Shown piece by piece: positions 44,912-49,111 of a stretch of DNA of 64,000 nt (the first letter of the stretch is position 1; each line of letters opens with the position of its first letter). Source of the DNA: Candidatus Methanoplasma sp. (GTDB taxonomy: Archaea; Thermoplasmatota; Thermoplasmata; Methanomassiliicoccales; Methanomethylophilaceae); the NCBI GenBank assembly GCA_031256955.1, contig JAIRPP010000012.1, positions 1 through 64,000 of the forward strand, written 5' to 3'. Below the pieces are notes generated by a model, which did no database searches, was not told the origin of the DNA, and was given only the letters and a program-made list of their open reading frames with translations. Made by a program: the position numbers and the translations under genes.

Positions 44912-47395
44912 ATGTCAAGGGGTAGCCGCAGCCATATCCCTGCGCTGGCGCGCGCCGCGCGGGGCGGATCGGGTATCCGCGGGACGCATAGGACGAAGGT
45001 CTTCGTCGCCGCGGTCGTGGCAGCTTCCGCCGTCGCCTGCCTCGTCGTCGCGGAGGGGTCTCCCGGCGACGGGTCCCGCATATCTTATTTCCTAGACGGG
45101 GAGATGGTCGCGGAGCAGGCGCCCCAGGGCGCCATCGAGTTCTCCCCGCGCGTCGGCGCGGGGAGGACCTTCTTCGGATGGAGCCTCCACCCGGACGGGA
45201 GCGGCAGGCTGTACTCCGAGGGGGACTGCGTTCCCGCCGGCCGCTCCGCGTCTCTCTACGCGGTCGTGGCGGACGGGATCATCGCGGTCGATGGAAGCCG
45301 CGCGTCTTTCTCATCCGTGTCCGAGCCCCCCCGCTTCGGGGAGGCCCTCGTGGACCTCAGGCACTCGGCGGGGGTCGACTCCGTGTCCATCGACGGGGAG
45401 ACGGCCTCCCTGATCCGGAGGGCGGAGGCCTCCGTGAGGGTGGAGTTCCGCGGAGGGCTGGGGATCCGCCTCGGGAGGGAGTGGGGGATCGAGGCCCCCG
45501 AAGGAGGCCTCGCCGTGTCGTATTCGGTCGGCCCAGACGGCTCCATGCGCGCGGCCGCGTCCTCCGGCGGCGCGCCGCTGCGCGCAGCGGTCACGGTCAT
45601 AGCGGGCCCCGGCATCGCCGAGGGGGGAGAGGCGAGGGCGTTCTCCGCCGGCCCGGGCGGGATGCGGGAGATCCCGTGCGAGGCAGAGGGCGGGAGGATC
45701 GCGTTCCGCCCCGGCTCGGAGAGCTTCAGGACGGTGGCGCTGTTCCCGGTGTCGGCGAGCGGCGGCGCCTCGCCGTCGAGCATGGGCTTCGAGCCGGTCT
45801 ATTCCGCGTATTTCGAGAGCTTCGGCAAGATGGCGGCGGGGGACGCGTTCACGCTCGGCAGGGCCGGCGAGGGGATGCGGTTCTCCGTCTCCGGGGCGGT
45901 CAGGGTGGGCGGGGCGTACGTGGTCGACGGCACCTCCGCCGTGGTCATATCCGTCGAGCGCGGGGCGTGCGAGCACAGGGTGTCCCTCCCCCGCGAGCAG
46001 ACGGGGTACGTCATCACGGCGGACAGGCAGTACGTCCCCGACGGCGGGGCGTGCGTCCTCAGGTACAGGCTCCTCCCCGGGTACTCCGACGCGGGCCTCA
46101 GCATAGCCGTCAACGGGAGGGTCGTGTCCATGGACGGCCTCGGCGAGATCCGCCTGAGGGACGTCAGGGACGACAAGGCCGTGACCGTCGAGGGGGTGGT
46201 CGACGTGAGGGTGTACTCCGTGTCCGTCCCGCGCGAGCAGACGGGGTACAGCCTGACGGTCTCCCCGGACAGGGTGCACCACGGCCAGTCGTACGAGGTG
46301 CGGTTCTCAGTCAGCCCGGGGTACGGGGGCCCCGCTTCGGTGAGGATCGCCGGCGGGCCCGCCATAGACGTGTCCTCCGGCGCCGCCACGGTGCGCGACG
46401 TGCGCGGGAGCCATTCCATAATCGTGGAGGGCGTGAGCCTGTCGGAGTACGTCGTGTCCGCCGGCAAGAACACGGTGGTCAGGGTCAACGGGCTCCCCGG
46501 GAGCGTCGCCACCATCTTCGACGTCGTCACCGTGGACCCCGCCCCCGGCTTCTCCATGCCCCCGACCTACGACAGCCACGTCTCCCCCCGCGTGGCGAGG
46601 GTCGGCGGGGGGTACAGGGTCTCGTCCGACGAATCCATGCCGTCCATAGTGAGGATCACGGTGGGGGAGAACCTCGTGGCCAACGGGACGCCGGAGCACG
46701 AGGCGCTGGACGTGTGCCCCGGGGACGTCGTCGTCATATCCGCGGAGCCCGGGTACCTCCTGTCCCCCGACTATGCGTCCAGGGTCGCCGGGATCGGGGG
46801 GACCGCGGCGCAGTCCCCCATGGGCGCGGGCTACTCCTTCGGGGACAGCGTCTCCCTGCCGGCGATACACCGGGTCGTGTTCATGGCGAGGGAGGGCGAG
46901 CACGCCAGGTTCTACTGCAACTACGGGGACGAGGTCCCGTCTCCCGGCGCCCCGTCCGACCCCCATTTCATCTTCGACTCCTGGGAGGGGGCGGGGGGAG
47001 CGGTCCTGTCCGACCTCGAGATCGCGTCCAGGTGGATCCCCAGGACGTACAGGGTCTCCGTGGGCGGAGGGGCGTTCGCGGCCCAGTACATGGGGGAGGT
47101 CCGCCGGGCCCCGTGCGTCCTGGACGTGGAGGCGGGCGGAGAGGTCAGGGTGTTCTACGCCCCCCCGCCCGCCGATCTGGTGAGCGCGGCCCTGCAGGCC
47201 CGCCCGGGCGGGGCGGGGCTCGAGGTCATAGCGCTGACCGAGGGCGTGTTCGAGATATACGGCGACTGCTCCCTGGGAGAGGGCGGGAGGTGGGTCGCGG
47301 TGGTCGTCGGCGACCGGGCCTACGTGTACCTGAGCGACGGGCCCCCCGAGGGGCTCGCCCCGCCCCCGCCCCGATCGGCGGCGGAGGCCGAATAA
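44912..47395 (+). CDS. large surface protein with repeat domains
   Basis: The 827-aa protein has a hydrophobic N-terminal segment (about 30-47) and is otherwise extracytoplasmic. Residues about 55-110 look like a Listeria-Bacteroides (InlB B-type) repeat, with FFGWSLHPDGSGRLYSEGD and SLYAV; a second such unit is near 660-710. Two units starting near 359 and 439 share the phrase PREQTGY and have an 80-residue period. No sortase or C-terminal membrane anchor is visible, so the N-terminal segment may anchor the protein. Adhesion or surface coating is inferred. Such proteins are common in host-associated archaea. Confidence 0.8.
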   Translation: MSRGSRSHIPALARAARGGSGIRGTHRTKVFVAAVVAASAVACLVVAEGSPGDGSRISYFLDGEMVAEQAPQGAIEFSPRVGAGRTFFGWSLHPDGSGRLYSEGDCVPAGRSASLYAVVADGIIAVDGSRASFSSVSEPPRFGEALVDLRHSAGVDSVSIDGETASLIRRAEASVRVEFRGGLGIRLGREWGIEAPEGGLAVSYSVGPDGSMRAAASSGGAPLRAAVTVIAGPGIAEGGEARAFSAGPGGMREIPCEAEGGRIAFRPGSESFRTVALFPVSASGGASPSSMGFEPVYSAYFESFGKMAAGDAFTLGRAGEGMRFSVSGAVRVGGAYVVDGTSAVVISVERGACEHRVSLPREQTGYVITADRQYVPDGGACVLRYRLLPGYSDAGLSIAVNGRVVSMDGLGEIRLRDVRDDKAVTVEGVVDVRVYSVSVPREQTGYSLTVSPDRVHHGQSYEVRFSVSPGYGGPASVRIAGGPAIDVSSGAATVRDVRGSHSIIVEGVSLSEYVVSAGKNTVVRVNGLPGSVATIFDVVTVDPAPGFSMPPTYDSHVSPRVARVGGGYRVSSDESMPSIVRITVGENLVANGTPEHEALDVCPGDVVVISAEPGYLLSPDYASRVAGIGGTAAQSPMGAGYSFGDSVSLPAIHRVVFMAREGEHARFYCNYGDEVPSPGAPSDPHFIFDSWEGAGGAVLSDLEIASRWIPRTYRVSVGGGAFAAQYMGEVRRAPCVLDVEAGGEVRVFYAPPPADLVSAALQARPGGAGLEVIALTEGVFEIYGDCSLGEGGRWVAVVVGDRAYVYLSDGPPEGLAPPPPRSAAEAE

Positions 47396-47404
47396 ATATA
47401 AATA
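47391..47404 (+). promoter_or_regulatory. TATA element of the leucine operon
   Basis: AATAAATATAAATA overlaps the stop codon of the preceding gene. A start about 25 bp on (near 47425) would give an RNA that opens with the two leader ORFs. Confidence 0.6.
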
Positions 47405-47445
47405 CCGCATATCCAATGGCAATCCACCGTCTGAGAGGTCATGAA

Positions 47446-47487
47446 ATGATCCCTGAATCGCGCGCTGAGCTTAGGCTTCTTCTATGA
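47446..47487 (+). CDS. leader peptide 1 of the leucine operon (MIPESRAELRLLL)
   Basis: This 13-residue ORF lies 38 bp before the next leader's end and ends in L-R-L-L-L. The Leu codons are CTT, CTT, CTT and CTA, rare types in a genome that favours CTC and CTG. GAGAGGTC seven bases before the ATG is a good ribosome-binding site. An in-frame ATG at 47416 would give a 23-residue form but probably lies upstream of the transcription start. Its stop overlaps the start of leader 2 (ATGA). Control of leuA by leucine-dependent ribosome pausing is inferred; I know of no established case in archaea. Confidence 0.65.
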   Translation: MIPESRAELRLLL

Positions 47488-47496
47488 GATTCAGCG
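47453..47496 (+). promoter_or_regulatory. alternative hairpins around the leader Leu codons
   Basis: CTGAATC (47453-47459) is the exact complement of GATTCAG (47488-47494). CGCTGA (47463-47468) is the exact complement of TCAGCG (47491-47496). The right-hand arms overlap, so only one hairpin can form at a time. The loops contain the Leu codons of leader 1 and the ATG of leader 2. This is the layout of an attenuator or a translation switch. Confidence 0.5.
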
Positions 47497-47525
47497 ACAG
47501 CGAGGGCGGTTTGGTGGTTTTATGA
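47484..47525 (+). CDS. leader peptide 2 of the leucine operon (MRFSDSEGGLVVL)
   Basis: This 13-residue ORF starts in the ATGA overlap with leader 1 and ends in the ATGA overlap with leuA. It closes with L-V-V-L, encoded by TTG, GTG, GTT and TTA; TTA is particularly rare here. The double overlap would couple translation of leader 1, leader 2 and leuA. GAGGGCGG inside the ORF can serve as the ribosome-binding site of leuA. Sensing of leucine and valine is inferred. Confidence 0.6.
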   Translation: MRFSDSEGGLVVL

Positions 47526-49111
47526 AAACGCAGCAAACCAGTGGAAGCGCTAAGGATATGGAAATGATGCTGGCTGTGAGCCCGTACAACCAGCTCGCGC
47601 TCTCCGGTGCGGGGCCCGTCAGGGACATAAAGATCTTCGACACCACCCTGAGGGACGGCGAGCAGGCCCCGGGGATAGCCCTGAGCCCCGAGGACAAGGT
47701 CAGGATAGCCCTGGCCCTGGACGACCTCGGCGTGGACTTCATAGAGGCGGGCTTCGCCGCCTCCGGCAAGGCCGAGAGGGACGTGATATCGAAGCTGTCC
47801 GGCATGGGGCTGAGCGCCAGGCTGTGCAGCCTGGCCAGGGCGGTCAGGCCCGACATAGACGCGGCGGCGGACGCGGGCGTGGACTACGTCCACACGTTCA
47901 TAGCCACCTCCGAGCTCCACATGAGGTACAAGCTGAAGATGACCCCCGACGAGGTCGTCGCCAGGGCGGTGGACACCGTCGAGTACGCCAGGGAGCGCGG
48001 GCTGGAGGTCCAGTTCTCGTGCGAGGACGCCACCCGCTCCGACATGGGCTTCATGAAGAGGGTGGTCTCCGAGGTCCAGAAGGCCGGGGCCTCGGCCATC
48101 AACATACCGGACACGGTCGGGGTCATAATCCCCCAGGCCATGGGCGCGGTCGTGAAGGGGATCCGCGAGGCGGTGTCCATCCCCATATCCGTGCACTGCC
48201 ACAACGACATGGGGCTCGCGGTGGCCAACACCATGGCGGCCATCGACGCCGGGGCCACGATATGCCACGTATGCATGAACGGGATAGGGGAGAGGGCGGG
48301 GAACGCCTCCCTGGAGGAGGTCGCCCTGAACCTGTTCGCCAACTACCGCGTCCAGACGGTGGACCTGGGCAAGATAGGGGCCACGTCCAAGATAGTGGAG
48401 AGGGTGACCGGGTTCGCCCTGGCCGGCAACAAGCCCATAGTCGGGAGGAACGCGTTCGCCCACGAGTCGGGCATACACGTCCACGGCGTCATGAGCAACA
48501 CGTCCACGTACGAGCCGTTCCTGCCGGAGCTGGTGGGCGTGGACAGGCAGATAGTGATAGGGAAGCACTCCGGGGCGCATTCCGTGCGCGGGAGGCTGGA
48601 CGCGCTGGGCGTCAGGTTCCCGGACGACCACATGCCCGAGCTGATGGAGGCGGTGAAGGACATCGCCGTGGGCGGGAAGATGATAGACGACGCGGAGCTG
48701 GTCGCCATAGTGGACAACGTCCTGCGCAAGAAGGAGACCGGGAGCCACTCCGTGGCCCTGGACGAGCTGACGGTGCTGACGGGCAAGAACACCACGTCCA
48801 CCGCCACGGTGTCCGTGGTCCTGGCGGACGGGTCCAGGAGCACCGTGTCGGAGATAGGCGTCGGGCCGGTGGACGCGGCGATCAACGCCATAAGGAAGGC
48901 CATCAACGACGAGATCACCATGGAGGAGTACAAGCTGAGCGCCATAACCGGCAAGAGCGATTCCATATGCGAGGTCACGGTGATGCTGAAGAACGTCGGC
49001 GGGGACGGGGCGCTCTCCGTCGGCAAGGCGGTTGGTTTAGATATAGTGGAGACATCAGTGGATGCCACCATGGCCGCGATAAACAGGGATTTCGCGAGAA
49101 GGAGGGACTGA
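47522..49111 (+). CDS. leuA: 2-isopropylmalate synthase (or citramalate synthase)
   Basis: The 529-aa enzyme condenses acetyl-CoA with a 2-oxoacid, the first step of leucine synthesis. The DTTLRDGEQAPG motif begins the TIM barrel, and HCHNDMGLAVANT provides metal ligands. A C-terminal regulatory (LeuA dimer) domain is present, ending SVDATMAAINRDF, so leucine feedback is likely. Placement with leuC, leuD and leuB supports leuA over cimA, though these genes can serve both pathways. Start at 47522 leaves an N-terminal extension of about 35 residues; ATG 47558 is an alternative. Confidence 0.92.
   Translation: MKTQQTSGSAKDMEMMLAVSPYNQLALSGAGPVRDIKIFDTTLRDGEQAPGIALSPEDKVRIALALDDLGVDFIEAGFAASGKAERDVISKLSGMGLSARLCSLARAVRPDIDAAADAGVDYVHTFIATSELHMRYKLKMTPDEVVARAVDTVEYARERGLEVQFSCEDATRSDMGFMKRVVSEVQKAGASAINIPDTVGVIIPQAMGAVVKGIREAVSIPISVHCHNDMGLAVANTMAAIDAGATICHVCMNGIGERAGNASLEEVALNLFANYRVQTVDLGKIGATSKIVERVTGFALAGNKPIVGRNAFAHESGIHVHGVMSNTSTYEPFLPELVGVDRQIVIGKHSGAHSVRGRLDALGVRFPDDHMPELMEAVKDIAVGGKMIDDAELVAIVDNVLRKKETGSHSVALDELTVLTGKNTTSTATVSVVLADGSRSTVSEIGVGPVDAAINAIRKAINDEITMEEYKLSAITGKSDSICEVTVMLKNVGGDGALSVGKAVGLDIVETSVDATMAAINRDFARRRD

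Follow-up and report, generated by a model that had tools for sequence, protein, structure and literature searches.

The leuA locus and its upstream hairpins

The short region upstream of leuA in Candidatus Methanoplasma sp. raises the question of whether leucine supply could control synthesis of 2-isopropylmalate synthase through a leader peptide and alternative RNA structures. The window, by which we mean the whole 64,000-nt stretch analysed (GCA_031256955.1, contig JAIRPP010000012.1, positions 1-64,000, forward strand), carries leuA followed on its 3' side by leuC-, leuD- and leuB-like frames, and it gave no Rfam match above the gathering threshold anywhere along its length, riboswitches, T-box and leu leader included. 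Immediately 5' of leuA lies an 827-residue reading frame (44912-47395, + strand) that contains repeated motifs such as VSVPREQTGY and has no NCBIfam match. The analysis presented here makes it near certain that a conserved archaeal leader-peptide element exists, and likely that this element is a translational leucine switch. Its RNA parts and codon signal are well supported by comparison among relatives, and the direction and mechanism of switching set out below are those that folding models suggest.

A preliminary description had drawn attention to two hairpins flanking the leucine codons of a leader frame, CTGAATC (47453-47459) with GATTCAG (47488-47494) and CGCTGA (47463-47468) with TCAGCG (47491-47496), and these are indeed exact complements whose right arms share TCAG. 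Their strength does not stand out from chance, as an exact 7-bp inverted repeat occurs in 5.9%, and a 6-bp one in 22%, of random 60-mers from an order-1 (dinucleotide-based) Markov model. The fold of 47420-47560, proposed as a check against shuffled sequence, was favoured over shuffles by a small margin only (z = -0.93, 36/200) and is not significant for the single sequence. Because inverted repeats and a single-sequence fold are weak evidence alone, the case was decided on relatives.

A conserved leader in Methanomethylophilaceae

A covariance model, R1, was built from 18 leaders and rebuilt as R2 from 54 distinct leaders of Methanomethylophilaceae, and the 53 of these with an upstream open reading frame (uORF) were used in most counts. 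Of the 147 genomes of the order that were searched, 56 gave a match to the covariance model; 55 of these belong to this one family and represent 10 genera. The match in the 56th genome is at chance level and lacks the parts of the element; matches outside the family in G137 and G428, together with a second match in G106 (E ~0.02-0.03), have no uORF or helices and were likewise rejected as chance. A leader from genus g13 (L189) that was matched by R2 from outside its training set contains a uORF, MVAIYDISEILLL, and all three of the helices described below as P1, P2 and P3 can be read in it.

The relatives share a common order of parts, which runs from a TATA box through ACCGTC, a GAGGT-like Shine-Dalgarno (SD) site, the uORF, a CAGTG region and GACGGTTTG to the leuA SD and start, with CAAACC following within leuA. 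The corresponding features of the window are:

47397-47404, + strand: TATA box (TATAAATA), corresponding to a TATA-like motif in relatives' leaders
47433-47439, + strand: uORF SD-like site (GAGAGGT), with a GAGGT-like motif in most leaders
47446-47487, + strand: leader uORF (leader 1), MIPESRAELRLLL, from ATG at 47446 to TGA ending at 47487, with Leu codons CTT, CTT, CTT and CTA
47513-47517, + strand: likely leuA SD site (GGTGG; GAGGTG in other genera), inside helix P3
47522-49111, + strand: leuA, 2-isopropylmalate synthase (NCBIfam NF002085, 598 bits against a cut-off of 517)

Since the TATA-like motif sits 25-31 nt 5' of the start of the element model in about 50 of 53 leaders, the transcript probably begins at about helix P1. 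An SD-like motif precedes leuA in 50 of the 53.

The leader uORF and its leucine codons

All but one of the 54 distinct leaders contain a uORF, 12-18 codons long and with a Leu run at its end; 40 of these 53 uORFs have exactly 13 codons, and the stop codon is TAA or TGA. Leu accounts for 163 and Ile for 48 of the 318 residues at the last six positions (53 leaders), and the first Leu of the run falls at codon 9 in 37 of the 53 uORFs. All six Leu codons occur among these residues, so it is the amino acid, not the base sequence, that has been kept. Leu codon choice within the uORFs is strongly skewed, with CTT or CTA accounting for 129 of 172 codons where usage in the leuA genes of the same genomes would predict about 9; in the window, three neighbouring genes use CTT for 0 of 88 Leu codons, and the uORF has three CTT codons and one CTA. 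Rare-codon bias in leu leaders is a classic bacterial example in which the explanation by rarity is known to be oversimplified (PMC1183508), and the CTT preference here could partly serve an unstructured loop. The leader carries one hallmark of an attenuator, a short ORF with codons for the amino acid made by the pathway of the downstream gene.

A second frame, leader 2 (ATG at 47484, overlapping the stop of leader 1), whose translation had also been proposed to respond to leucine supply, is not conserved in relatives. A GTG-started frame that ends at the leuA start in Methanoplasma relatives, and is unlike leader 2, is apparently a by-product of the conserved P1, P3 and SD DNA.

Mutually exclusive helices P1 and P3

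The helices of the leader are placed in the window as follows:

47426-47432, + strand: P1 5' arm (ACCGTCT), pairing with 47504-47510
47504-47510, + strand: P1 3' arm (GGGCGGT), whose GGT is common to P3
47463-47468, + strand: P2 5' arm (CGCTGA), the second of the two hairpins first proposed
47491-47496, + strand: P2 3' arm (TCAGCG), closing a hairpin loop that contains the Leu codons
47508-47513, + strand: P3 5' arm (GGTTTG), pairing with 47534-47539
47534-47539, + strand: P3 3' arm (CAAACC), leuA codons 5-6 (Gln-Thr), covarying with the 5' arm
47437-47451, + strand: P0, a small hairpin in the minimum-energy fold, pairing GGTCAT of the uORF SD region with ATGATC (codons 1-2)
47540-47551, + strand: P4, a possible small hairpin (AGTG....CGCT) in leuA codons

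P1 joins the 5' end of the transcript to the region before the leuA SD, and P3 joins adjacent bases to leuA codons so that the leuA SD and start codon are enclosed. Because the two helices share GGT, they are mutually exclusive. On alignment A3, 98.4% of P1 cells are paired and both sides have changed in 24 cells, where shuffles give 5.3 (0/500); for P3, 99.4% of cells are paired and both sides have changed in 3, where shuffles give 0.3 (1/500). A3 was fitted to the structure, and an alignment-free arm permutation was therefore added, in which none of 2000 redealings of the 3' arms among species gave as strong a signal for P1, P2 or P3. The signal for all three helices also holds in 23 divergent representatives, a partial control for relatedness, and three control or alternative pairings gave no covariation signal. 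The P2 5' arm could also be matched to the CCAGTG motif of leuA, but this pairing has no covariation signal and was rejected. RNAalifold on the first MAFFT alignment recovered P3 and missed P1, as it cannot represent overlapping helices. The 3' arm of P3 is itself conserved, with CAA in 50 and ACC in 44 of the 53 leaders. A further hallmark of an attenuator, mutually exclusive helices backed by covariation, is thus provided by P1 and P3.

P2 varies in register between genera with its hairpin maintained; it can form alongside either P1 or P3 and does not constitute the switch. Covariation for P0 is modest (11/2000 among the 23 divergent representatives), and support for P4, which is mostly invariant and confounded with coding, is weak.

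Seen against the relatives, the preliminary description had found the right place with largely the wrong parts. Its CGCTGA/TCAGCG pairing survives within the covarying P2, but CTGAATC occurs in no other leader, and the pairing with GATTCAG that had been taken for a switch arm is confined to the window, where forcing it costs 4.8 kcal/mol relative to the minimum. The conserved exclusive pair is instead P1 against P3, both lying outside 47453-47496. The proposed route from leucine supply to leuA through the leader is upheld in its regulatory Leu codons and exclusive RNA structures, but not in the hairpin pair chosen to carry it.

Ribosome-masked folding and a proposed switch

Masked folding, in which the RNA of the 53 leaders was folded with ribosome footprints, describes how occupancy of the uORF would shift the balance between P1 and P3. 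Before the P3 arm is transcribed, P1 averages 0.82; in the full RNA with no ribosome, P1 stands at 0.38 and P3 at 0.63. A ribosome on the uORF start brings P1 to 0.00 and P3 to 0.88, and P1 takes values of 0.31 with a ribosome at codons 10-11 and 0.17 with one at the stop. The rise of P1 with a ribosome at the Leu codons is thus modest, since 0.31 compares with 0.38 without any ribosome. The mean energy needed to open the leuA site is 5.7 kcal/mol when P1 is formed and 9.0 kcal/mol when the uORF start is occupied, and the mean unpaired fraction of the site is nearly constant between states. Opening costs computed with P3 forced were set aside, one of the masked bases being part of the forced helix. 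For the leader in the window the calculations give a weak P1 (0.26 in the truncated RNA, 0.06 in the full one): P1 with P2 reaches -39.4 kcal/mol against -42.3 kcal/mol for P2 with P3, and when P1 is forced an inner part of P3 remains paired.

These models suggest a switch in which plentiful leucine would allow ribosomes to load on the uORF and clear it fast, with the initiating ribosome covering the 5' arm of P1. With that arm covered, P3 would form and the leuA ribosome site would be hidden, giving the off state. When leucyl-tRNA is short, a ribosome would stall at the Leu codons about nine codons in, where it would be past the P1 5' arm, would hinder further loading and would melt P2. P1 could then form before the 3' arm of P3 is transcribed, leaving the leuA ribosome site easier to open and the gene on. 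The element before citramalate synthase, described next, would operate with Ile codons in place of the Leu codons.

The element before citramalate synthase and its losses

In two genomes, G056 and G060, the same leader and the same first leuA codons precede a gene for citramalate synthase, the enzyme that opens an isoleucine pathway with its first step. The two genes score 678 and 652 bits with TIGR00977, well over the cut-off of 450. The uORFs there are MIFKLTTEPIIIG in G056 and MIFKLTAGLMIIG in G060, and an Ile run replaces the Leu run (EPIIIG and GLMIIG against ELILLK); upstream of its leuA, G056 still has the ordinary Leu version of the leader (L089). Known from two related genomes, this Leu-to-Ile swap hints more strongly than any other single observation that the codons act as the sensor. 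The citramalate synthase genes (L133:6523-8142 and L135:1-1605, both on the - strand) combine the leader with an N-terminus of the leuA type (MKKQQTSESAK), which looks like a copy of the regulatory module attached to a different enzyme.

Methanomethylophilus 1R26 and G035 have an identical leader in which the uORF and P3 are both lost. Among 16 near-complete genomes of the family without the element, 9 lack a close leuA (E <= 1e-100) and 7 have one, and in leaderless leuA genes with a readable start the N-terminal codons that form P3 are absent. The genomes lacking a close leuA include G072, G076 and G077, where leucine synthesis may have been lost or may be carried out by a more distant enzyme. 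Methanomassiliicoccus-type leuA genes without the leader (L040, L042, L043) have in common another possible hairpin (ATCGC ... GGCGAT), which covers the region preceding a possible leuA start. A similar leader was not seen upstream of ilvB (valine/isoleucine), trpE (tryptophan) or hisG (histidine) in seven genomes. Upstream of trpE, L174-L180 contain repeated TACATnnATGTA-like inverted repeats, which resemble a transcription-factor operator and not a leader peptide.

Weighing alternative explanations

Taken as a whole, comparative sequence and folding models point to a leader-peptide attenuator that probably acts on leuA translation, and other accounts of the same conserved parts have to be weighed against this reading. 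The leader might instead attenuate transcription, setting whether RNA polymerase stops before leuA at a T-run or through FttA-type termination of untranslated RNA. A T-run of 5 or 6 just 5' of leuA in 29 of the 53 leaders would agree with this, as would the reported FttA-mediated polarity in archaea (PMC12548453). We nevertheless consider it unlikely, with 24 of the 53 leaders having no T-run of 5 and with the conserved P3 spanning the leuA SD and start and using leuA codons, as expected for control of initiation. An intrinsic terminator built from a hairpin and U-run was rejected, the T-run of at least 5 being present in only 29 of 53 leaders, lying within the P3 hairpin loop and not being conserved. 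FttA could still add to a translational switch.

That the RNA binds a protein or small molecule, in the manner of a riboswitch or autoregulation, with the uORF incidental, seems to us distinctly improbable. Such an RNA would fit the conserved stems and the short strings that recur among the leaders, GAGGTCAT and CAGTG for example, and the actinobacterial LEU element has been suggested to bind a protein (PMC1262725). A ligand-binding RNA would not account for a uORF whose frame, length and Leu run are kept while its codons range over all six Leu codons, nor for the exchange of Leu for Ile before the citramalate synthase gene cimA, and the element matches nothing in Rfam.

Termination-reinitiation, in which translation of the uORF (and leader 2) would deliver ribosomes to leuA and stalling would lower or change that delivery, is given very little weight here. 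The frames of leader 1, leader 2 and leuA are joined in the window by ATGA overlaps, and in a few close relatives an ORF ends at the leuA start; against this, leader 2 lacks conservation and the covariation of P1 and P3 would go unexplained. Distance also makes reinitiation unlikely: nearly all leaders have 31-45 nt between the uORF stop and leuA, and beyond 30 nt little or no coupling is reported for Haloferax and E. coli (PMC12548453). Chance or a coding artefact, with short complementary strings arising in a small intergenic region as the non-significant single-sequence fold might suggest, is barely credible, and is already contradicted by the covariation and codon evidence from an architecture conserved in 10 genera of one family.

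Comparison with known attenuators

In bacteria, the control of amino-acid operons by leader-peptide attenuation is a textbook case. Translational attenuators of the ermC kind are also close, and in them a ribosome stalled in a leader ORF alters the RNA structure masking the SD of the following gene. Compared with the E. coli leuL type, the archaeal leader lacks an intrinsic-terminator hairpin and its RNA parts are unrelated; its output helix spans the SD and start of leuA and is built from leuA's own codons, and its transcript probably starts at the switch helix itself. The element would work like a leader-peptide attenuator and, since the terminator is absent, is not a leu-operon transcription attenuator. 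By analogy with ermC, a stall in the leader ORF would change an SD-hiding fold, but the archaeal stall would come from uncharged tRNA at codons and not from a drug acting with a nascent chain.

The actinobacterial LEU element (PMC1262725) is similar in placing a uORF with a Leu run before leuA, in having alternative structures and in its proposed control of leuA initiation, although tests of the Leu codons in Streptomyces did not fit classical attenuation (PMC1262725). The Leu codon run of that element forms a base stem with the leuA SD, and there is also a pseudoknot (PMC1262725), whereas the archaeal leader has the Leu run in a hairpin loop, pairs an SD-overlapping P3 with leuA codons 5-6 and would use other helices for its switch. 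Because the helices differ, the archaeal leader is not the actinobacterial LEU element.

The open-access full-text literature that we searched, outside which most subscription papers fall, yielded no archaeal leader-peptide attenuator. On balance we favour the view that this is the first archaeal ribosome-mediated attenuator, in which a stall on rare Leu codons would switch leuA through P1 and P3 using leuA's own codons, and in which the module has moved to citramalate synthase with isoleucine now the sensed codon. The natural change from Leu to Ile before cimA makes the sensing rule directly testable. If true, a conserved archaeal case would imply either a coupling between transcription and translation tight enough for such a mechanism or the separate origin of a purely translational version.
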